Assembly: GCF_024372725.1 (NCBI RefSeq)
Contig: NZ_VOUA01000003.1
Span: 124,001-188,000, forward strand
Direction: 5' to 3'
DNA: 64,000 nucleotides
Origin: Methanosarcina sp. KYL-1
GTDB taxonomy: Archaea; Halobacteriota; Methanosarcinia; Methanosarcinales; Methanosarcinaceae
Shown: piece after piece, positions 10,505 through 22,853 of the stretch
Layout of the letters: every line of letters begins with the position of its first letter
Position numbering within the stretch: the stretch's first letter is position 1
The notes under the pieces: model-generated
What the model saw: only the letters and a program-made list of their open reading frames with translations
The model's database searches: none
What the model was told of the DNA's origin: nothing
Translations under genes and position numbers: made by a program

Positions 10505-11440
10505 TTACTTCCTTTCTTTCGCATAGGCTACAATTGCGTCCTTGATTCCGTACTTAAAGGCAATGACGATTGCAATCCCCCACGCAAGCGGCCCGAAGAA
10601 GAGGTAGAGGATGCCTGTGTCGATGAGCATTGTGTCCAGGGCGAGGAGGATTACGATAAGCAGCAAAAATCCCCTCAGGAGCGGGACTATGATGTCTGCC
10701 CCTTCGATGTTCATGCCTTTTACAGTGCTGCTCAGGTAGTCCATGATAAAGTCAATGGCAAGAATTCCGACAAGCAGGATCAGGATCCCGGTGAAGAGGC
10801 GCGGCAGGTACGCGGTGATGTCGATCAGGAACTGCGTAAACATGGTAAGCTTTAAGATGTCCACCGCAGCCGTGAGGAAGATCAGGTACCCGAAGAGCCT
10901 TATAATCCCGGCAATTATCCCTGAAGTAGTCATTCCCCCTGCCTTCATGGAAGCCCCGAAGGGGGTCTTTTCCAGTTTTTCATCGACTCCGATTGCGGCA
11001 AGCAGCGTTTTTACAGTGTTGCTGATGAAATCAACGATCAGCAGTCCTAGCAGCAGGACGATAAAGGCGGAAATGATGAGGGGGATGTACAGGATAATCT
11101 CGGTAATGAAGGTTGCCACAATCTGGATGTCCAGGAGGTCTATGATAATCACGGCAAAGATGATATAGATGAACCAGCGGATCACCACTGCAAAAAAGCC
11201 CACCGTACTCATGTCCGCTTTTTTTATCATGCCTCCGATGACGGTTTTGTCAATCAGGTCGTCAAGCCCTATTTTGTCCAGCACTTTTGAGCCAAGGTTT
11301 CCTACAATGTTCCCTACTATTTTTCCCACAATAATGAGAAGAATAACTGCTACAAGAGTTGGAATAAAAGAAATGAACTGATCTGCCATACCAAGTAAAC
11401 TATTCATGATTTCCGATTGAACCAAAGTAACCACTCCCAA
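10505..11440 (-). CDS. Membrane protein with conserved TM-helix repeats (MscS-associated TM_helix type)
   Basis: Integral membrane protein of about 311 residues with two or three copies of a repeated unit. Each unit has a long hydrophobic helix (FIPTLVAVILLIIVGKIVG, YIPLIISAFIVLLLGLLIVD, YLPRLFTGILILLVGILAID), then an amphipathic segment and a second helix. This resembles the 'conserved TM helix' repeat found in proteins annotated as mechanosensitive-channel related. The soluble MscS beta domain is absent, so channel function is inferred only. Start is uncertain: a GGGAGTGGT site could serve TTG at 11425 or ATG at 11407. It is divergent from corA at 11801. Confidence 0.75.
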   Translation of the reverse strand: MGVVTLVQSEIMNSLLGMADQFISFIPTLVAVILLIIVGKIVGNIVGNLGSKVLDKIGLDDLIDKTVIGGMIKKADMSTVGFFAVVIRWFIYIIFAVIIIDLLDIQIVATFITEIILYIPLIISAFIVLLLGLLIVDFISNTVKTLLAAIGVDEKLEKTPFGASMKAGGMTTSGIIAGIIRLFGYLIFLTAAVDILKLTMFTQFLIDITAYLPRLFTGILILLVGILAIDFIMDYLSSTVKGMNIEGADIIVPLLRGFLLLIVILLALDTMLIDTGILYLFFGPLAWGIAIVIAFKYGIKDAIVAYAKERK

Positions 11441-11800
11441 TATTTTAAACCGAATCAGACGATTTCTCCCTATTCCCCTTTTTCAGGAGAAACATCTCAT
11501 TATATATTCAGCTCATTATATTATCTGATATATAATACATATATTTATCTGGTTACCTTAGTTAAGAAAAACTCCCTCTTTTCTTCATAGTTACGGTAAT
11601 CAAAATTGGTCGGAAGGGTAGCAACCAATCGGCAGGTCGGAAAAAGCGTCTTTGAACACTGTGGACAGAAACTTCAATTAAGGATAGGCCCAATTTGTAT
11701 TTGTATCTGTATTTGTATTAGAGTTCCAGTTCGTATCGCTGTAAGTCCGGTTACCATTTGCCGTACAAATCCAATTTGTATTCGACTGCGAGGTAGATCC

Positions 11801-12871
11801 GTGAAACCTGGGATGTTTGGAAAAAAGAAATCGAAGGTCGGGCTTGCCCCGGGGACACTTGTCCACGTGGGCGAAAAAAAGGCAGAAAGGGTCGTTATCA
11901 GGGTTTGGGCCTATAACAACGGCGAATTCATTGAGAAGGAACTGCAAAGTGTTGAGGAATGCCTGGCCTTTAAGGAAAAAACCGAAATGAACGTCTGGAT
12001 CAACGTGGACGGTCTCGACCGCGTTGAGGTAATTGAAAAGCTCGGGAAATATTTCGAGATCCATCCCCTTACCCTCGAAGATGTGCTCAACACCGGGCAG
12101 CGGCCAAAGATGGAAGATTACGAATCCTACATCTATACTGTCTTAAAAATGATGTTTCTTGACAGGGAAAAGGAAGAAATCGTCATGGACCAGGTGAGCA
12201 TCATCCTTGGCCCCAAATATATCCTTTCTTTCCAGGAAAGGGAAGGAGACGTTTTCGACCCTATACGGGAACGGCTCAGGAACCCCAATTCCAGGCTCCG
12301 AAAGACAGGGGTCGACTACCTGGCTTACGGCCTGATCGATGCTGTTATAGATAACTACTTTTTGATCCTCGAGCATTTCGGGGAAAAGATAGAGGACCTT
12401 GAAGATGAGCTTATCGTGAATCCGAAACCCGATACCCTGCAAACAATCCAGAGATATAAACGGGACATGATCCTTCTCCGGAAATCCGTCTGGCCCCTGA
12501 GGGAACTTATAAACGGGCTGCAGAAGATCGAGTCCGGGCTCATCAGGGAGTCAACCCAGATCTACCTCCGGGATATCTATGACCACACAATCCAGGTCAT
12601 AGACGCAATCGAAGCTTTCAGGGATATCCTCTCTTCCATGCTCGACGTCTATCTCTCCAGTTTGAGCAACAGGATGAACGACATTATGAAAGTCCTGACG
12701 ATCATCGCCACGATATTCATCCCCCTTACCTTCATTGCAGGCGTCTACGGCATGAACTTCGAATACATGCCCGAACTAAGATGGCAATGGGGCTATCCGG
12801 CAGTCATGGCTTTCATGGCTCTGGTAGGGTTTGTAATGTTTGCCTACTTTAAGAAGAGAAAATGGCTTTAA
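11801..12871 (+). CDS. corA: CorA-type divalent cation (Mg2+/Co2+) transporter
   Basis: Pentameric inner-membrane cation channel. The cytoplasmic N-terminal alpha/beta domain and long helices (EDLEDELI, LLRKSVWPLRE) lead to two C-terminal transmembrane helices. The signature YGMNF (GMN at residues 317-319 from this start) closes the first helix, and the protein ends in a basic KKRKWL tail. The start was set at GTG 11801, because GAGGT lies 6 nt upstream and this gives 356 residues, a normal CorA length. ATG at 11813 is the alternative. The reading frame stays open back to 11606, but that part encodes a low-complexity ICICICI stretch made by TTGTAT hexamer repeats and is probably 5' leader. 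Confidence 0.93.
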   Translation: MKPGMFGKKKSKVGLAPGTLVHVGEKKAERVVIRVWAYNNGEFIEKELQSVEECLAFKEKTEMNVWINVDGLDRVEVIEKLGKYFEIHPLTLEDVLNTGQRPKMEDYESYIYTVLKMMFLDREKEEIVMDQVSIILGPKYILSFQEREGDVFDPIRERLRNPNSRLRKTGVDYLAYGLIDAVIDNYFLILEHFGEKIEDLEDELIVNPKPDTLQTIQRYKRDMILLRKSVWPLRELINGLQKIESGLIRESTQIYLRDIYDHTIQVIDAIEAFRDILSSMLDVYLSSLSNRMNDIMKVLTIIATIFIPLTFIAGVYGMNFEYMPELRWQWGYPAVMAFMALVGFVMFAYFKKRKWL

Positions 12872-13070
12872 GCCGGAAGGTAAGGGCTTTCCTCTTTTTT
12901 CTTTTTACCCTCTTTCCTTTCCCCTTGCCTTTTTTTCCATTTTCTTCTCTATTTTTTTTCCTTTTTCTTTTTCTGCCCTTATCTTCCTTTTCAGCCATTT
13001 TTAAATTTATTACAATGTTATTTTTTTTATAATGGTTAGGATGTATAGTTAGTAAATTTGTTTAAAAAAT
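12872..13070. promoter_or_regulatory. Pyrimidine-rich corA terminator region and AT-rich DUF432 promoter region
   Basis: A run of T/C-rich sequence (about 12888-12990) follows the corA stop, as expected for archaeal poly-T termination. From 12995 to 13065 the sequence is very AT-rich, with TTTTTTTATAATGG and TTTAAAAAATTT tracts that could contain the promoter for the DUF432-MscS pair. No precise site can be fixed by reading alone. Confidence 0.4.
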
Positions 13071-13844
13071 TTGAATGATGGAAGAATGATTGGAATAAAC
13101 ATGTACGGCTATCATGAACTCCCTTTTTCGGTGGAGCAGGAAGGAATTTCAATCTCCATGGAAAGGGTTGGAGAGCGGTGGGTATACAGGAGGACCTTCG
13201 GGTCCGATGAGGTGGAAAAGCTTGTCCTGGGAAATGATAAGAGCCTCATCATAAACCCCGTAGAGCCCCTGAACACCCCCAAGGAGATCACCCCCAACCT
13301 GTTGATCGAGTTTGAAAAAACGCTGCTCCTGGGAGCAGGAGAAAAACAGCAGATCTTTTTGACCTTCCCGGTTGAGATAGGGATCTTTATCTCGGAAAAG
13401 GCAAACAAGAACCTTGAAATCCTTGACGTGCTGAGCCTTGTGAAGCAGAAGTTCACCCTCTACGGAGAGGTTTCAAACGGGGTGGTCTGCAAGTACTGGA
13501 AGAGCCGGGTCTACACATCGCCTCCTTCCCTTAACCCCCTGGAGGAAGGGGTCATGGAACTGACGCTCCGGAATACTTCTTCCGAATGGGTGAAGATCTC
13601 AAAGGCGGTTTTCAATGCCTACGGGATGAAACTGTACTACGACGGGGATGTCTTCATGAAGGCAAGGATGGATATCCTCAACAAGAACTCGGCTGAAACG
13701 GGTTTCGAGCTCATGCCTCCTGAAGGGGGGCGGAAGGGAGCCCTCCTGAAAGATAAGAGAGCCAGGAAAGAGGCTTTCGGGATTTACGGTCTCAGGAAGC
13801 TTGGCCTTGTACCCCTCAAGTTTTACATGGGGTGGGGGCTGTGA
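13071..13844 (+). CDS. DUF432 family protein
   Basis: Archaeal protein of about 257 residues, matched to DUF432 by its overall pattern (HELPFSVEQEGISISMERVG, FPVEIGIFISE, YYDGDVFMKARMDIL). Function unknown. It is predicted soluble and beta-rich with no signal peptide. It overlaps the next gene (MscS), so the two are almost certainly co-translated, and a role in modulating or assembling the channel is a reasonable inference. The start is uncertain: TTG 13071, ATG 13086 and ATG 13101 are in frame and none has a strong ribosome-binding site; the sequence aligned to the family begins around MYGYHELPF. Confidence 0.8.
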   Translation: MNDGRMIGINMYGYHELPFSVEQEGISISMERVGERWVYRRTFGSDEVEKLVLGNDKSLIINPVEPLNTPKEITPNLLIEFEKTLLLGAGEKQQIFLTFPVEIGIFISEKANKNLEILDVLSLVKQKFTLYGEVSNGVVCKYWKSRVYTSPPSLNPLEEGVMELTLRNTSSEWVKISKAVFNAYGMKLYYDGDVFMKARMDILNKNSAETGFELMPPEGGRKGALLKDKRARKEAFGIYGLRKLGLVPLKFYMGWGL

Positions 13845-14776
13845 TCCCGGACATAAATTTCTCGGACATTAACTTCTTTGACTATGCCCTGTACAAGACC
13901 ACCATGAACGGTGAAGTTCATAACGTCACCCTGGGCGCCCTTTTAAAGTTCGTCCTCGTCCTCGCCCTTTCGGTAATTGCTGCCAGGATCATTACGATTT
14001 ACCTGCGCAGGTCTCTTCAGGATAAGGTAAGCAAGGATGTCCTCGAAGCCGTAATCAAGCTCCTGTATTACGGCACACTGGGCGTTGTCTTCATCTCAAT
14101 CCTTCCTCTTATAGGGCTTGACCCCTCAGGGCTGCTGCTGGCCGGAGGAGTTGCCGGTATCGTAATCGGTTTTGCGAGCCAGAACATTGTGGGAAACCTT
14201 GTTTCGGGTTTCTTCCTGATGATCGAGCGCCCCATTAAAATCGGGGACCAGGTGGAAGTCAACGGGATATCGGGCTACGTAAGCGATATCCGCATAATTT
14301 CCACCCTTGTCAGGACCTATGACGGGCTCCTGGTCCGCATCCCCAACGAGCAGGTCTTCACCACAAACATCACAAACCTCGTAGGCCACCCGGTCAGGAG
14401 GTTTGAGTACACCGTCGGGATCCGCTACAGTGACGACGCTGATGCTGCAATCTGGATCATTAAAGATCTGATCGACAAAGAGCCCTTTGCCCTCCAGAGT
14501 CCCTCCCCCTCGGTTTTCGTAAACGAGCTTGGAGACAGCTCGGTAAACATCGTTGTGAGGGTCTGGGCACCGGTAAGTGAATGGTTCGGGCTCAAAACAA
14601 GGCTGCTCTGGAACATAAAAAAGACCCTTGAAGAAAACGGCATAGAAGTCCCCTTCCCACAGCGGGTACTCCACTTTGAAACCGGGGCTAAAAAAGGGCA
14701 GAAGGTTATAGAGGAAATGAAAGAGGCAGAAGAAATAGAAAACGTGTTAAATCATGAAGAAAGGACGTTGTATTAA
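13832..14776 (+). CDS. Mechanosensitive ion channel, MscS family
   Basis: 314-residue MscS-type channel. N-terminal hydrophobic helices (about 28-48 and 70-95) precede the pore helix with the repeated small residues LLLAGGVAGIVIGFASQNIVGNL, the beta domain (IKIGDQVEVNG, VRIPNEQVFTTNITN) and the C-terminal domain ending IEVPFPQRVLHFE. The start is either GTG 13832 or GTG 13841; the latter overlaps the DUF432 stop as GTGA, the usual coupled arrangement. It forms an operon with DUF432. The tail after residue 290 is highly charged (lysine/glutamate). The other MscS at 4736-5752 lacks this partner, which suggests distinct regulation. Confidence 0.93.
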   Translation: MGAVIPDINFSDINFFDYALYKTTMNGEVHNVTLGALLKFVLVLALSVIAARIITIYLRRSLQDKVSKDVLEAVIKLLYYGTLGVVFISILPLIGLDPSGLLLAGGVAGIVIGFASQNIVGNLVSGFFLMIERPIKIGDQVEVNGISGYVSDIRIISTLVRTYDGLLVRIPNEQVFTTNITNLVGHPVRRFEYTVGIRYSDDADAAIWIIKDLIDKEPFALQSPSPSVFVNELGDSSVNIVVRVWAPVSEWFGLKTRLLWNIKKTLEENGIEVPFPQRVLHFETGAKKGQKVIEEMKEAEEIENVLNHEERTLY

Positions 14777-15039: not shown

Positions 15040-15570
15040 TAAATAGAAAAATAAAACCTTTTTTGATTTGCTTTTCAGGTACCGTAACTCTCACCGGGTG
15101 CGAAGCATAGCGAAGCAGCCGGCCTTTTCCATAGGTGTATATGAATAAGCGAAAGAGCATCAAATTACTTAGAAAAGGGCATTTAGATAACCAAAAAAGT
15201 TATCAGAATGACTGAGATGTGGCATTGAAATAAACAAAAAAGTCATCAGAATAACTGAGAAAAGGCATTTAGATGACCAAAAAGGGCATCTGAATGACTG
15301 AATAAGGTATTAGGATAAGCAAAAAGAGGATTCAGGTGACTAATGGACTGGTTAAGAAAAAATACAAGATAAGGAAAAAACACAAGGTTCAATTTGAGTT
15401 AGTGCTCTGGTCGTCACAACCTGAAAATATATTTATCCATTATATTTTGAACTTCTTTTAGAGAGAACTATTATATTTCTTATTTTATTTTTGGGAGGCG
15501 CCGCCAGGCAAGCTGGCGGGTGATTCCCGCATCAACCAGAATGAAAAACGGTTTCCGGGGTAAAGGGAAG
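15040..15570 (+). repeat. Paired-hairpin repeat element, copy A
   Basis: Noncoding element with the same order of parts as copy B at 23.05-23.52 kb. It opens with CAGGTACCG and TCTCACCGG, then a GC-rich left hairpin (about 15093-15123, with two GCGAAGC mini-hairpin cores) and CCTTTTCC. About nine degenerate 20-22-nt units follow (consensus near RATGACTGAAAAAGGGCATT, 15160-15345). A conserved tail has TACAAG, GGTTCAATT and TTAGTGC. The right end holds a hairpin (CCGCCAG-GCAAG-CTGGCGG, 15500-15518) and GAAAAACGGTTTCCGGGGTAAA-like sequence. Stop codons fill all frames. Copies A and B flank the protease gene region in the same orientation. Confidence 0.8.
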
Positions 15571-15780
15571 TAATTCCTCTCATGTTAATTCCTCTCATGT
15601 TAATTCCCCTCCTATTAATTCCCCTCATGTTAATTCCTCTCATGTTAATTCCCCTCCTATTAATTCCCCTCATGTTAATTCCTCTCATGTTAATTCCTCT
15701 CATGTTAATTCCTCTCATGTTAATTCCTCTCATGTTAATTTCCCTCCTATTAATTTCCCTCCTATTAATTCCTCTCATCT
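15571..15780 (+). repeat. 14 x 15-bp tandem repeat abutting element A and the hydrolase 3' end
   Basis: Fourteen units of TAATTCCTCTCATGT or the variant TAATTCCCCTCCTAT. It begins exactly where element A ends and runs into the last codons of the minus-strand hydrolase, whose stop TAA lies in the final unit. It is translatable on both strands because 15 is a multiple of 3, but the peptide is pure repeat and there is no reason to call it a gene. Confidence 0.9.
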
Positions 15781-16367
15781 TCTTTTTCTTTCCTTTCTTC
15801 AAGGGCATCCCGGATTTTTTTGACAGTACGAGCTCCCGGAGTACCTTTCATGTTGTGGGGCGGCCACTGCCCGGATTTGATTTCTTCCGAGTTTTCATCG
15901 TGCTCATCTTCGAGGAGCAGGATGAGTTCGATGTCGTCGGGAATGTCGTTTACCATCTTTGCCCCGCAGACCTCGAGTTCTCCCAGGGCTTCTTTTCCTT
16001 TTGCTTCGTCGAAGGAGACAGTGCAGCCTTTTACGACATTTGTCCGAAAGCCTCTCTCAAGAAAGCCGAGAGAGTTGTGGTATATGCAGACCTCGTCAAC
16101 CAGGCCTGTTATGAACACCTCTCCAATGCCCATTTCCGCAAGCTCCAGTTCCAGTTTCGGGTTTGTGAAAGCATTGTAGTGGTCTTTAGGAAGCCTGAGC
16201 ACCGGGGCATTTCCCGATTTGTAAACTTTTTTCATAAGTTTCACTATCGGGTCCACGATTGTCTTTCCCAGGGGAGCTACGAGGCCGCCTTCATATTCCC
16301 TTCCTTCATGTTCGTATTTCTCGTATACGAAATCGTTTGTCATGTCTATGATAACCAGTGCTTTCAA
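15765..16367 (-). CDS. Isochorismatase-like cysteine hydrolase with displaced metal-site segment
   Basis: 200-residue cytoplasmic protein of the isochorismatase/nicotinamidase superfamily. The catalytic triad is recognisable as Asp8 (IIDMTNDF), Lys61 (RLPKDHYNAF) and Cys94 (GLVDEVCIYHNS). In nicotinamidases the metal site (D-x-H, then WPxH followed by GTPGA) lies between the Asp and Lys. Here the matching segment is at the C-terminus: D154-E-H156, WPPH171 and GTPGA at 175-179. All expected residues are present, but in permuted order. Start TTG 16367 is supported by GGGTGA 4-5 nt upstream. The substrate is not predictable. The last residues are encoded by a 15-bp repeat array. Confidence 0.82.
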   Translation of the reverse strand: MKALVIIDMTNDFVYEKYEHEGREYEGGLVAPLGKTIVDPIVKLMKKVYKSGNAPVLRLPKDHYNAFTNPKLELELAEMGIGEVFITGLVDEVCIYHNSLGFLERGFRTNVVKGCTVSFDEAKGKEALGELEVCGAKMVNDIPDDIELILLLEDEHDENSEEIKSGQWPPHNMKGTPGARTVKKIRDALEERKEKEDERN

Positions 16368-16694
16368 GCTTTCACCCTTATCTTTATCCTTTAATCCATC
16401 TTGTCTCTTATCTTCTATTTGCGTTATTTACGATAAGTTTACCTCAGAAGCCTTTTTTGAAGTAATTTTTCCTGGACAAGCATGACAATATAAAAACACT
16501 TAAAATATAAAAACACTTAATACTTATATAAATATAATAATACTCAATTGTTTAGTCCAATTTTGTACTAAAAAATTAGTATGTTATTTTTTGAAATGTA
16601 CTTGTTATTTCGCTTTTAAGCCGATTATGAAGCTTAATCTGCTTTCTAACTTTAAAATAATTAAGAAGCAAAATAAAACGGATAAAGGGATAAA
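16368..16694. promoter_or_regulatory. AT-rich divergent promoter region
   Basis: 327 bp between the divergently transcribed hydrolase and surface-protein genes. A duplicated AATATAAAAACACTTAA block and TATATAAATATAATAA (about 16485-16535) give several TATA candidates. AAAGGGATAAA precedes the ATG at 16695 as ribosome-binding site. No conserved operator was recognised. Confidence 0.45.
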
Positions 16695-19600
16695 ATGCTA
16701 AAAAAACACATTATATTTTTTTCTCTTGCTGCAATATGCCTCCTGCTAGGGCATGCGGCAGCAATTTCAGAAAATCTGACTCCTTTAGAAAATGAATACA
16801 TAACACATGAAAATAATAAATATATAACATATGAAAATAATGAATACCTATCATTTGAAAATAATGAATATATTCAATCTGAAAGTGATTCCTCAGGACT
16901 TTTTTCCCTGGCTCCTTTGAATCCTGAGTTTGAGGAGTATCTGGAAAAAGAAGAGTTAAGCGAGGAAAGAATGTTTTTGACCTCCAGTGAGCCTTCAGAA
17001 CGGGTTGAAAATTTAGCAACCGGCCTCACTCCCGCCCCCGTAGACCTTTCACACCTGAAAACTATTGAAAGTCTGGAAGGTTTGAGTTCTTATCCTGTTT
17101 CTTACGACCTCCGTACCCTCGGGCTTGTGAGTCCTGTCCGGGACCAGAAGGATGCAGGAAGCTGCTGGTCATTTGGAGCCTATGCATCCCTGGAATCTTA
17201 CATTCTCGGAGCAGAAGGAAAAAACAGGGATTTTTCCGAAAACAACATGAAAAACCTGCTTTCCGAGGATTATCCTGAAGGTTTTGACCGAAGTTATGAT
17301 GACGGCGGAAACGAGTTTATATCTACGGCTTATCTTGCCCGCTGGAGCGGTCCGGTAAGCGAAACCGATGACTCTTATGACCCCCACTCCGGGGTTTCCC
17401 CGACAGACCTTCCTGCCCTGATGCTTGTTCAGGAAGTGCTCTTCCTCCCGGCAAGAAGCGGTCCCGGAGATAACGAGCTCATCAAATGGGCCCTGATGGA
17501 TTACGGGGTGCTTGACTCCAGCATTCATTTTACTTCCGATGCTTATGACTCTGCCAACTGCAGCCATTATTACTCCGGTTCGGAACCAGCAAACCATATG
17601 ATAGGCATCGTGGGCTGGGACGATTCTTTTGACCGGAATAAATTCACTCCTGCAGCTCCGGGAGACGGGGCATTCATTGTCAAAAATTCCTGGGGTACCG
17701 CCTGGGGAGAGGAAGGTTTCTTCTATGTTTCGTATTACGACACTGTTATCGGGAGCGGAAGTACTGTTCATACGGCCGAAGACCTCGGCTCCTATTCTCA
17801 TGTGTACCAGTACGACCCCCTGGGCTGGGTTGAAAGTATCGGGTATTCGGGAAGCAACGCAGCCTGGGCAGCCAACGTCTTCACAGCCGAAAAAGCCGAG
17901 ACCCTCGAAGCCGTGAGTTTTTATACCACTGCTTCCGATACCGGATACGAAATCTACGTCTACACAGGTACGGATTCCGGGCCCATAAATCCTGAGGGGG
18001 CAGAAACTTCCGTTAACGGGACAATCCCCTTTGCGGGTTACCATACGGTTTCCCTGGACTCCGGAGTCCCGCTTGAGGCCGGGCAGAACTTTTCAGTAGT
18101 TGTAAAATTTACTACCCCCGATTATTCCTATCCTGTGGCGGTTGAATACCCGCTTGCCGGACACAGCAGCAAAGCCAGGGCAGGTCAAGGGGAGAGTTTC
18201 TTCAGCCCGGACGGGGAAAGCTGGGTGGACACTTCTCTTGCTGTGGAAAACATGAGCGTCTGCATTAAAGCCTTCACAAACCGGAGCGAGGCGGCAGAAG
18301 CTGCTTTCACTGCCAATGTGGCCTCGGGCCCGGCTCCGCTAACGGTCGAGTTTATTGATGCAAGTACTTACTCTCCCGTGGCCTGGTACTGGGACTTCGG
18401 GGACGGAAACAATTCAACGGCCCGTTTCCCTGCCCATACCTATGCGAGAGCCGGAAAGTACAATGTCACACTCCGCGTGGAAAACGAATACGGATACAGT
18501 ACTACTGAAAAAACGGAATTGATAAGCGTAACTGACGCTTCCCTTATCTATGTGGACGATGACGGGCCTGCGGACTTTTCTTCCATCCAGGCTGCGGTTG
18601 ACGCCGCTTCTCCGGGGGCTACAATTATTGTTAAAAACGGCACTTACACGGAAAATGTGGATGTTGACAGGGCTGTTACAATCATTTCCGAGTTTGGGCC
18701 CGGGTACACAAAAGTAAACGCTTCAAACCCGAAAGATTCCGTGTTCTACGTAACTGCAGATGGAGTTAACATTTCAGGTTTTTCCGTAAGTGGCGGGTCT
18801 GAACTTGTGTCTTCTTCTACCTACTCCACCGCCGGGATCTGGCTCTATGATGTCAGGGACTGCAACATAAGCGGAAACGTGCTTTCGGATAACTACTGTG
18901 GAATTTCTGTGATTTTTTCAGGGAACTGTACCCTGACCGGGAATAGGGTTGAATCCAGTCACATCGGAATTCTTATGGACAGGTCGGAAGAGAATAGCCT
19001 GAGAAATAACAGGCTGGAAAACAACTCTTGCAATTTTAAGATTCCGGGCGCTTCGACTGCAAACGACATTGACGTAAGTAATACGGTCGACGGCAGGCCT
19101 ATCTACTATCTTGTAAACGAAACTGACCTTATCCTTGATTCTGATTCGGATGCCGGAACCGTTTATTGCATTGACTGCCGGAACGTGACGGTCCGGGACC
19201 TGAACCTTTCAGGAAATTACTACGGGCTTTACCTCTACAATACGACGGATTCCCACGTTGAAAACATTAGCTCGTCAGAAAACAATTACGGACTCTGCAT
19301 CAAAAATTCCCGCGGCTTAAATTTCACGAACAATTCCGCAAGTTCAAACGGTTGCGGGCTTTCCCTTGAAGATTCGGAATGGGAATCTTTCTCCTGCAAC
19401 AGAATGGAAGGAAACACTTACAGTTTTGATATTAAAGGGAACTGTTCTTCACAAAGCGTGTCCTATATGGATTCAAGCAACCTGCTGGACGGAAAGCCCC
19501 TTTACATCCTTTCCGGAGTTTCCGATTATGTCCTGGATGCCGGGGCCGGTGATGGTCCTGTTTGTCTCTTTAACTGCCGGAACGTAACAGTCCGGGACCT

Positions 19601-22600
19601 GATGTTCCGGGACAGCCTGTTTGGAGTTGCCCTTTACGGGACGGAAGAGGCAATAATCGTAAACAATACGTTCTATGGTAACCGGTACAGAGGGGTCTAT
19701 CTTGAAAATTCCTGGAACAGTACGGTAGAAGGTAACGAATTTTCGGGCAATTCATACGGGATTTACCTGAAGGCATCTTCAGGAAACACCCTGACAAACA
19801 ACACCCTATCCGCAAATCCGGGATGGGGAATCTGTCTTTACGAGTCCTGCGATAACATTGTAAGCAGCAACAATGCTTCCGGGAGTAATTATGGAATTTA
19901 TGTGTCCTACTCCGATGACAACTGTTTCGTGGAAAACACTGTTTCTTACAATGCTATAGGGCTCCTTCTGGTAGGCTCTAAATACAACACCCTTACAGCA
20001 AACACCGCAAATTCGAATAGAATAAGCGGGTTTGACCTGACCATAAGCCGGCACAATATCCTCTTGGGTAACACAGTTCTGGACAACTCCCGCCGCGGCA
20101 TTATTCTTGAGGGCAGCATGACCAATGGAGTCCTGGCAGCGGATAATGTCCTGTGCTACAACACGGTATCAAATAACTCGGAAGTAGGGGTCTTGCTCTC
20201 CGGAGCCGAAAATAACACCTTCTACGGCAATGCTTTCAATAACACAAAGAACGTTGAAGACTGTGGCCAGAAGAATATATGGAATAACACTGCCGGAAAT
20301 TACTGGAGCGATTATTCGGGCTCTGACGCTGACGGTAATGGGATAGGGGATACTCCTTACGTTATCAACTACCTGACCGGAACTAAGGATTACCTGCCCC
20401 TCACCAGGGAACCCGGCGTCCCGCTGACCCTCACAGTGGGTCCCGGAGCCGAGACATTCTCTTCGATCCAGGCGGCTGTGAATGCTGCGTGGGAAGGGGA
20501 TACGCTCCTCGTAAGCCCGGGCACTTATACGGAAAACGTGCTGGTGAACAAATCAGTTAGCATCATTTCTTCATCCGGGAGCCCTGAAGACACGATCGTC
20601 CTTGCGGCTGATCCTGAAAAACACGTTTTCAACGTGACTGCCGATTCCGTGAACATCAGCGGGTTTACCGTGTCCGGGGCTTCTGAAGGGTATGTTGCAG
20701 GAGTCTACCTGGAAGGGGTATCAGGCTGCAGTTTAAGCGGGAATGTCCTTTCTGATAGCTATTTCGGGATCTGGTTAAGCGAGTCCGAAAACTGTACCCT
20801 TTCCGGAAACACCGTGACCGGAGGAAGATTTGGGATTTATCTTGAGGGTTCCGATAACAACGCTGCAGGTGGGAACAGCATAAGTTCGGTTTCTACCTGC
20901 GGGCTCTGGCTTGAATACGCCTCAGGAAACGAACTCTCCGGGAACGAGCTGCAGGACAATGGATACGGGATTGCGGTCCTGGACCTGAGTAATGAAAATG
21001 AGCTGCACAACAACACCATAAGCGAAAGTGCCGAATTAGGGCTCTGGCTCTCGAGTTCAGGGGCAAATGTCCTGAGAAACAACTCGATGCAGTTCAGCAC
21101 TTTCAACTTCATGGACCAATATTTATTTTCTGGAGATCTCCTTCCAAATGATGTCGATACCAGCAACACGGTTGACGGCAGGCCGATATATCACCTTGTA
21201 GGAGAGTCGGATCTTGTCCTGGATTCGGCTTCAAATGCCGGTACTGTCTACCTGATCAGCTGTGAAAATGTGACTGCCAGGGACCTGGTGCTCGAAAAGA
21301 ACGGGTTTGGGATTTTTGTCTCAGAATCTTCGAATTCCACCCTGTACAACCTCACGGTATCCGAAAACGAGTTCGGGATTCTGGGCCTGATCGACAGCAG
21401 TAGCAATTGTTCAAACAACACTGTGGAGAATAATTTCTATGGGATCTACTTTGTTGCCGGGGAAAATAACCTCCTGAATAACAACAGGATCTCGGAAAAC
21501 GGGTATGGGCTCATGCTTGCTTCCTATTCCAGCGTCCTGAGAAATAATCTTATTTCAGGCAACGAATACAACTTCGGGGCAGAAGCAATTTTTGGAGTGG
21601 AGGAAAATGATATCGATACCAGCAACCTTGTAGACGGGAAGCCCATTTACTACTTTGCAGGGGAATCCGACAGGGTGCTCGATGCTTCTTCCAATGCAGG
21701 AACTGTGTACCTTGTTGACTGTGAGAACATAACGGTCAGGGACCAGGTGCTTGAGCATAACATATACGGCATTTATCTTTACAATACGACGAACTCAAGT
21801 CTGGTAGGAAACCGCGTGAGCAACAACGATGGAGGGCTCGTGCTTTACGCTGCTTGCAATAATAGCATCTACGACAATTTCTTCTCAAGTGACTTTCTGA
21901 ATGTCCGGTTGATGGGTGAAAGTGCCGGAAACACCTGGAATACCAGCAAGACCGAAGAGCCAAATATCCTCGGGGACCCGTATATCGGAGGCAACTGCTG
22001 GGCAAACCCGCAGGGGACAGGTTTTTCCCAAACCACACCTGACGCAGATGGAGACGGGTTCTGTGACCTTCCTTACGAGATTCCGGAATCTGGAGACCAG
22101 TTTGACAGCCTCCCCCTCTACAACCCTCCCGAACCTGCCGATGACGGAGAAGAAAAACCGGAGAAGAGCAGCGGGAGCCGGTCAGCCCGTTTTGGTGGTG
22201 TTTCGGGAGTGCCTTCTGTCAACATTCAGGCAGCGGACGTTTCCAGGCAGCAGGTGCTCGCAGGCCAGCAGGCGGAGTTTACATTCAGTGACCCCGGATG
22301 CAGTGTTACGGGCATCAGCTTTGTTTCAGGGACCAGTGCCGGGGCAGTGACCGGAAAAGTGGAGATCTTAAACGGCCTGCCAAAAACGATTCTGGAAGGT
22401 CCGGAAGGTGTGGTTTACCAGTACATGAACATAGTGATCGGAAGCCAGTTCTTTGGGGAATCAGGTACTTTTGAGAGTGCCGTGATTGACTTTAAGGTCC
22501 CCCGCAGCTGGATGGAAGAGAATATGATCGATGAAACAAGCCTCGTCCTGAACCGCTTCCATGAAAATGCCTGGACCCCGCTTGCGACTGAAAAAACCGG

Positions 22601-22853
22601 GGAAGACGCCGAATTTTTCTACTTCAGGGCTGAAACCCCCGGCTTTTCCTACTATTCGATCACAGGGGAAAAGAGAGATGCCGTTACGATAACGCCGGCA
22701 GGAACTCCAGACTCCGGAGAAGAGGCACAGGAAATAACGGGTAATGAAGTTCCGGAAGCAACCTCTGGAGAAGAAAAGAAAAGTCCGGGCTTTGGGCTTG
22801 TCTTTGCAGTTGCGGGAATTCTTTCCGTAATGTTCCTGTTGAAAAAGAGGTAA
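16695..22853 (+). CDS. Giant secreted C1-peptidase / PKD / beta-helix surface protein with PGF-CTERM anchor
   Basis: 2052-residue cell-surface protein. Domains in order: signal peptide (about 1-24); a linker with ENxxYI-type repeats (30-62); a papain-like C1 peptidase with Gln151, Cys157 (DAGSCWSF), His301 (NHMIGIVGWDD) and Asn331 (VKNSWGTAWGEEGFFYV); a lectin-like beta domain (about 370-530); a PKD domain (534-612, WYWDFGDG); two NosD/CASH-type right-handed beta-helix regions (about 615-1235 and 1243-1815) full of N-x-T/S sites and SGNxxxGI turns; a PGF-pre-PGF domain (about 1845-2000); and a C-terminal SPGFG motif, hydrophobic helix and KKR. That tail is an archaeosortase A processing signal, so the protein is probably lipid-anchored in the envelope. 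The peptidase looks active. Targets are unknown. Confidence 0.93.
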   Translation: MLKKHIIFFSLAAICLLLGHAAAISENLTPLENEYITHENNKYITYENNEYLSFENNEYIQSESDSSGLFSLAPLNPEFEEYLEKEELSEERMFLTSSEPSERVENLATGLTPAPVDLSHLKTIESLEGLSSYPVSYDLRTLGLVSPVRDQKDAGSCWSFGAYASLESYILGAEGKNRDFSENNMKNLLSEDYPEGFDRSYDDGGNEFISTAYLARWSGPVSETDDSYDPHSGVSPTDLPALMLVQEVLFLPARSGPGDNELIKWALMDYGVLDSSIHFTSDAYDSANCSHYYSGSEPANHMIGIVGWDDSFDRNKFTPAAPGDGAFIVKNSWGTAWGEEGFFYVSYYDTVIGSGSTVHTAEDLGSYSHVYQYDPLGWVESIGYSGSNAAWAANVFTAEKAETLEAVSFYTTASDTGYEIYVYTGTDSGPINPEGAETSVNGTIPFAGYHTVSLDSGVPLEAGQNFSVVVKFTTPDYSYPVAVEYPLAGHSSKARAGQGESFFSPDGESWVDTSLAVENMSVCIKAFTNRSEAAEAAFTANVASGPAPLTVEFIDASTYSPVAWYWDFGDGNNSTARFPAHTYARAGKYNVTLRVENEYGYSTTEKTELISVTDASLIYVDDDGPADFSSIQAAVDAASPGATIIVKNGTYTENVDVDRAVTIISEFGPGYTKVNASNPKDSVFYVTADGVNISGFSVSGGSELVSSSTYSTAGIWLYDVRDCNISGNVLSDNYCGISVIFSGNCTLTGNRVESSHIGILMDRSEENSLRNNRLENNSCNFKIPGASTANDIDVSNTVDGRPIYYLVNETDLILDSDSDAGTVYCIDCRNVTVRDLNLSGNYYGLYLYNTTDSHVENISSSENNYGLCIKNSRGLNFTNNSASSNGCGLSLEDSEWESFSCNRMEGNTYSFDIKGNCSSQSVSYMDSSNLLDGKPLYILSGVSDYVLDAGAGDGPVCLFNCRNVTVRDLMFRDSLFGVALYGTEEAIIVNNTFYGNRYRGVYLENSWNSTVEGNEFSGNSYGIYLKASSGNTLTNNTLSANPGWGICLYESCDNIVSSNNASGSNYGIYVSYSDDNCFVENTVSYNAIGLLLVGSKYNTLTANTANSNRISGFDLTISRHNILLGNTVLDNSRRGIILEGSMTNGVLAADNVLCYNTVSNNSEVGVLLSGAENNTFYGNAFNNTKNVEDCGQKNIWNNTAGNYWSDYSGSDADGNGIGDTPYVINYLTGTKDYLPLTREPGVPLTLTVGPGAETFSSIQAAVNAAWEGDTLLVSPGTYTENVLVNKSVSIISSSGSPEDTIVLAADPEKHVFNVTADSVNISGFTVSGASEGYVAGVYLEGVSGCSLSGNVLSDSYFGIWLSESENCTLSGNTVTGGRFGIYLEGSDNNAAGGNSISSVSTCGLWLEYASGNELSGNELQDNGYGIAVLDLSNENELHNNTISESAELGLWLSSSGANVLRNNSMQFSTFNFMDQYLFSGDLLPNDVDTSNTVDGRPIYHLVGESDLVLDSASNAGTVYLISCENVTARDLVLEKNGFGIFVSESSNSTLYNLTVSENEFGILGLIDSSSNCSNNTVENNFYGIYFVAGENNLLNNNRISENGYGLMLASYSSVLRNNLISGNEYNFGAEAIFGVEENDIDTSNLVDGKPIYYFAGESDRVLDASSNAGTVYLVDCENITVRDQVLEHNIYGIYLYNTTNSSLVGNRVSNNDGGLVLYAACNNSIYDNFFSSDFLNVRLMGESAGNTWNTSKTEEPNILGDPYIGGNCWANPQGTGFSQTTPDADGDGFCDLPYEIPESGDQFDSLPLYNPPEPADDGEEKPEKSSGSRSARFGGVSGVPSVNIQAADVSRQQVLAGQQAEFTFSDPGCSVTGISFVSGTSAGAVTGKVEILNGLPKTILEGPEGVVYQYMNIVIGSQFFGESGTFESAVIDFKVPRSWMEENMIDETSLVLNRFHENAWTPLATEKTGEDAEFFYFRAETPGFSYYSITGEKRDAVTITPAGTPDSGEEAQEITGNEVPEATSGEEKKSPGFGLVFAVAGILSVMFLLKKR

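Follow-up and report, generated by a model that had tools for sequence, protein, structure and literature searches.

A putative non-circularly permuted isochorismatase-family cysteine hydrolase with a C-terminal metal site in Methanosarcina

Introduction

The closest known relatives of the protein described here are the PncA-type nicotinamidases/pyrazinamidases of the isochorismatase family (PF00857; 3o90, 3s2s, 5zn8, 1ilw, and 3pl1). The canonical sheet order of this fold is 3-2-1-4-5-6. In PncA of Mycobacterium tuberculosis, Asp8 lies at the end of strand 1, Lys96 at the end of strand 3, and Cys138 at the start of a helix (PMC3025910), and the motif series DxH...PxH...C[VI] has been proposed as a fingerprint of nicotinamidases (PMC3581539). 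Outside this family, the capsid protein of BPP-1 provides a natural precedent for fold elements reordered non-circularly (PMC3863775), and the NlpC/P60 enzymes include cysteine hydrolases whose catalytic domain is circularly permuted (PMC3142127).

In this study, we analyzed a gene of Methanosarcina sp. KYL-1 that lies in a window of 64,000 nucleotides (the whole stretch of DNA analyzed). A sequence-only reading of the window had suggested that the gene encodes a cysteine hydrolase whose metal-binding segment was moved to the C-terminus by a circular or segmental permutation that kept the active site. We found no description of a permuted member of the isochorismatase/nicotinamidase family in the open-access literature searched; the single paper in which nicotinamidases and circular permutation came together concerns Borrelia plasmids. 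Judged by its sequence, the protein belongs to a known family and has a block order that, as far as this literature shows, was previously undescribed.

Results

Gene, start site, and genomic context

The gene is a 200-residue frame with a TTG start and a TAA stop (Table 1), and a check of the translation agreed with the frame, coordinates, and residue numbers of the sequence-only reading. The N-terminus of the protein is well set because TTG is the start codon in all 27 sequences (the KYL-1 protein and its orthologues), mostly behind a GGTG-type site. The codons of the last seven residues and the stop codon overlap a tandem array of ~14 copies of a 15-bp unit (15571-15778) at the 3' end of the gene. 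An imperfect 43/86-bp tandem repeat (15144-15325) is located in the intergenic DNA downstream. The gene adjoins a block at 10505-14776 that encodes an MscS-type channel, a DUF432 protein, a CorA transporter, and a second protein with a mechanosensitive-channel helix, and this neighborhood is kept in most loci checked. A 2052-residue secreted-type protein with papain-family peptidase, lectin-like, and PKD domains and long NosD/beta-helix repeats is encoded at 16695-22853.

Table 1 Features of the permuted gene in the window.
Feature	Position	Strand	Basis
Permuted cysteine hydrolase gene (candidate)	15765..16367	-	ORF translation and orthologues
GGTGA, putative ribosome-binding site upstream of the TTG start	16372..16376	-	GGTG-type site ahead of TTG in most orthologues
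Block 1, residues 1-52: strand 1 (catalytic Asp8, 16344-16346) and helix 1	16212..16367	-	residues 1-47 align to canonical profile 12-50
Block 2, residues 53-143: strand 3 (Lys61, 16185-16187), strand 4, nucleophile Cys94 (16086-16088), strands 5 and 6	15939..16211	-	residues 61-140 align to canonical profile 100-179
Block 3, residues 145-190: relocated strand 2 and metal loop, D154-x-H156 (15900-15908), H171 (15855-15857), GTPGA	15798..15935	-	residues 147-187 align to canonical profile 55-93; lowest dN/dS
Final seven codons (residues 194-200) and stop	15765..15788	-	missing in most orthologues, which end near residue 193

Family membership

The sole Pfam match above the cut-off was Isochorismatase (PF00857; 62.4 bits against a cut-off of 27, E 7e-17). 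Its best stretch covers only profile positions 87-170, mainly with residues 53-138, and the N-terminal 57 residues align to profile positions 2-44. Because the best Pfam stretch spans only half of the protein, an intact metal site can escape annotation that relies on the order of motifs or on profile coverage. In NCBIfam, there were sub-threshold matches to several subfamilies; the nicotinamidase equivalog PRK11609 scored 27.3 bits, missing its cut-off of 174 in a comparison without canonical archaeal controls. Compared with any solved or canonical nicotinamidase, the protein shows about 20-35% identity. The D-x-H, P-x-H, and C-V elements of the nicotinamidase fingerprint are present in a different order, the last being C-I or C-V. 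In the phylogenetic tree, the permuted clade (100/100) groups with metal-bearing nicotinamidases (97/90), apart from the three other isochorismatase-family proteins of the KYL-1 genome, which have no D-x-H; the moved block was set in canonical order in the tree alignment, which may favor this placement.

Order of the blocks

The key residues of the KYL-1 protein follow the order Asp8 - Lys61 - Cys94 - D154-x-H156 - W168-P-P-H171 - G175-T-P-G-A179. Three stretches of the protein align in permuted order to a canonical profile built from 12 archaeal nicotinamidases of ordinary order (Table 1), and a phmmer search against solved structures also gave three stretches in permuted order, to nicotinamidases of Streptococcus and Bacillus. 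The gap in the profile-profile alignment falls at strand 2 and the metal loop. When residues 144-192 were returned to the canonical position, the profile score rose from 70.2 to 83.9 bits, compared with a mean of 63.7 and a maximum of 73.7 bits for shuffled inserts (n = 200). A two-residue insert suffices to align the C-terminal block with canonical loop fragments. By itself, this block is a weak match in the KYL-1 protein (9.6 bits, E 0.04; reached by none of 2000 shuffles) and scores 19-21 bits (E about 1e-5) in some orthologues, and the best match to the loop model falls at about residues 150-188 in 26 of the 27 sequences.

The strand order of the protein is 1-3-4-5-6-2, differing from the canonical linear order 1-2-3-4-5-6. 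These alignments indicate that strand 2 and the metal loop (~45 residues) have moved from mid-chain to a position after the last strand, as a non-circular relocation. Both the three-block profile match and the restored order, which beats all 200 shuffles, uphold the claim of a metal-binding segment moved to the C-terminus. The segmental part of the earlier "circular or segmental permutation" stands, while the circular part does not: a circular permutation requires one new pair of termini and an unchanged cyclic order, but the block of strand 1 and helix 1 is still N-terminal, so that the change is the relocation of one internal block.

Orthologues and selection

The sequence-only reading had proposed a search for orthologues with the same order, and these were found in 26 of the 31 genomes of the genus (KYL-1 included) and in all four genomes of a sister genus in the same family, with 68-88% identity. 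The gene is missing from five genomes of the genus. No full-length permuted relative was found elsewhere among 393 genomes of the phylum, where matches were confined to the middle block and were to canonical proteins. A stricter search, covering 200 genomes of the class, yielded no further permuted orthologues, and no full-length relative was found in the viral contigs, phages, and plasmids searched. An exact-peptide-word scan of 84,980 species, which reaches close relatives only, gave matches mostly named Methanosarcina or Methanosarcinaceae. No evolutionary intermediate between the canonical and permuted orders was found. The simplest reading is that the permuted order arose once, near the base of Methanosarcina.

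D8, K61, C94, D154, H156, and H171 are invariant (n = 27 sequences). The median dN/dS was 0.109 overall, 0.170 for residues 2-52, 0.113 for residues 53-143, and 0.077 for residues 144-190; these values are approximate because dS is near saturation. The lowest value, in residues 144-190, makes the relocated segment the most constrained part of the protein. The earlier judgment that an active site is kept and not decaying is supported by ~30 orthologues sharing the order, by the six invariant residues, and by purifying selection that is strongest on the relocated segment. One other genome has, in degenerate form, a second copy of the permuted gene's C-terminal half (G037:C40:15505-15777; 79% identity, four stops).

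Predicted structure

AlphaFold prediction with the 29 orthologues alone gave a pLDDT of 54.6 and an uncertain C-terminus. When fragments of canonical relatives were supplied as separate rows, the pLDDT was 93.2 and the pTM 0.89, with a pLDDT of about 90-96 for the relocated segment (residues 141-190); in this alignment, the canonical fragments teach local structure, and the rows linking the relocated block to the rest are those of the orthologues only. We discarded mixed alignments in which the added fragments extended from strand 1 into the metal loop or the canonical rows were complete, as MAFFT placed blocks wrongly in them. In the model, strand 2-7 leads into D8, strands 56-61 and 146-154 end with K61 and D154, respectively, and C94 is near the beginning of helix 91-104; relative to the secondary structure, these four residues are predicted where nicotinamidases have them. 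The best fold matches are nicotinamidases, with 3o90 from Streptococcus pneumoniae at the top (TM 0.61, rmsd 2.7 A); this TM value comes from a sequential alignment, from which the moved block is necessarily absent. Strand 6 is joined to the relocated strand by a linker of ~6-7 residues (140-145), which is short for crossing the sheet and is conserved in length.

The sequence-only reading had expected the C-terminal segment to occupy the place of strand 2 and the metal loop of nicotinamidases. The fragment-supplemented model agrees with this indirectly, in the confident order of the segment and in the positions of the triad and D154, whereas the orthologue-only model was poor. On the basis of the supplemented model, the C-terminal strand probably docks in the canonical slot, where the metal ligands would lie beside the triad.

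Distribution and a possible role in NAD salvage

The permuted gene is the only family member found in G003, G006, G008, G029, and G030 (one or two contigs each) and in several other genomes. A member of the PncB-type nicotinate phosphoribosyltransferase family occurs in every near-complete genome of the genus (two typed), and the nicotinate phosphoribosyltransferase present in the KYL-1 genome could use the product of a nicotinamidase. As far as gene content goes, this distribution fits a nicotinamidase in NAD salvage. However, many relatives have the phosphoribosyltransferase without any isochorismatase-family protein, and the argument for nicotinamide is therefore weak. We rejected this co-occurrence as proof of function, as it looks strong inside the genus and is weakened by the wider relatives. 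Because the phosphoribosyltransferase is common without a family member and five genomes of the genus have no permuted gene, nicotinamide is best regarded as a candidate substrate.

Discussion

We propose that the KYL-1 protein is a lineage-specific, non-circularly permuted isochorismatase-like cysteine hydrolase that has a working metal site and descends from a nicotinamidase ancestor, and we consider this explanation as a whole likely. The protein is most likely a metal-dependent cysteine amidohydrolase. Metal binding and amidase activity are probable, and the chances that nicotinamide is the main substrate are about even. It is fairly probable that this is a natural, functional non-circular permutation that arose once near the Methanosarcina root and placed a strand from inside the central sheet, together with the entire metal site, at the C-terminus, where they possibly complete the active site of a partner subunit.

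The ancestor would have been a metal-dependent nicotinamidase in which the strand-2/metal-loop block linked helix 1 to strand 3; this block would have been lost there and gained anew after strand 6. The simplest route would be a tandem duplication, after which the loop was deleted from copy one and most of copy two was lost. Folding would return the C-terminal strand to the slot between strands 1 and 3, so that a divalent metal bound by Asp154, His156, and His171 would face the Asp8-Lys61-Cys94 triad. Cys94 would then attack the amide with the help of Asp8 and Lys61, and a metal-positioned water and the substrate would complete a PncA-like hydrolysis.

An assembly or sequencing artefact or a decaying gene can practically be dismissed. 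No sign of either was found for the KYL-1 gene, the one observation of this kind being the degenerate second copy in another genome, while ~30 separate assemblies have the same order and open frames, which also answers the concern of the sequence-only reading about an assembly error; decay is ruled out by the orthologues and dN/dS. It is also very improbable that the C-terminal segment is a chance motif likeness or a former loop with a new role in a metal-free cysteine hydrolase. The low score of the block in the KYL-1 protein and the unordered C-terminal segment of the orthologue-only AlphaFold run would fit such a protein, but the block scores higher in some orthologues and aligns to the canonical loop with a mere two-residue insert, its ligands are invariant, and it has the lowest dN/dS of the protein.

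The path of the chain allows a domain-swapped oligomer, in which the C-terminal strand and metal loop fill the slot of a neighbor and each active site is built from two chains. We keep this arrangement as a reading, albeit an unlikely one, since the linker, at about six residues, would be short for a chain that crosses the sheet; the linker length is conserved, and in the canonical sheet order, strand 6 and the strand-2 slot are far apart. YcaC, a relative, forms an oligomer in which the C-terminal helices are placed on the neighboring subunit (PMC4519933). Against a swap, the linker is predicted with confidence in the monomer (pLDDT 94-96), yet predictions of this kind often turn swaps into closed monomers. 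The fold and metal site may also be as proposed and the substrate another small amide, carbamoyl, or ureido compound, which we regard as quite possible without favoring it. The breadth of the superfamily, the sub-threshold NCBIfam matches, and the low identity to nicotinamidases leave room for such a substrate, but the closest neighbors in sequence, fold, and tree are metal-bearing nicotinamidases, and the protein carries their fingerprint.

Non-circular permutations are much rarer than circular ones. If the proposed relocation is true, it places a non-circular permutation in the active site of an enzyme whose close relatives all belong to one lineage and for which canonical counterparts are available for comparison. 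Such a system could be used to study how a strand buried at the center of the sheet and a metal site can be rewired without loss of function.

Compared with known systems, the protein is like the PncA-type enzymes in its Asp-Lys-Cys triad, D-x-H and P-x-H motifs, and predicted alpha/beta fold. It differs from them in the place of strand 2 and the metal loop, which follow strand 6 here but separate helix 1 from strand 3 there. In addition, helix 1 leads straight into strand 3, the hairpin after strand 1 is longer, and the identity is low. Canonical nicotinamidases of Archaeoglobi type from the same phylum (L060-L072; taxon inferred) are among the nearest in the tree and in block matches, but they have the canonical order and give no full-length match to the permuted order. 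The KYL-1 paralogues (L073, L074, and L075) share the Pfam family and differ in their canonical order, the lack of D-x-H, and a separate tree branch. The BPP-1 capsid protein is also naturally non-circularly permuted, but it is a non-enzyme with an unrelated capsid fold. The circularly permuted NlpC/P60 enzymes are likewise cysteine hydrolases with a permuted catalytic domain, and differ in their papain-like fold and in the circular nature of the permutation.
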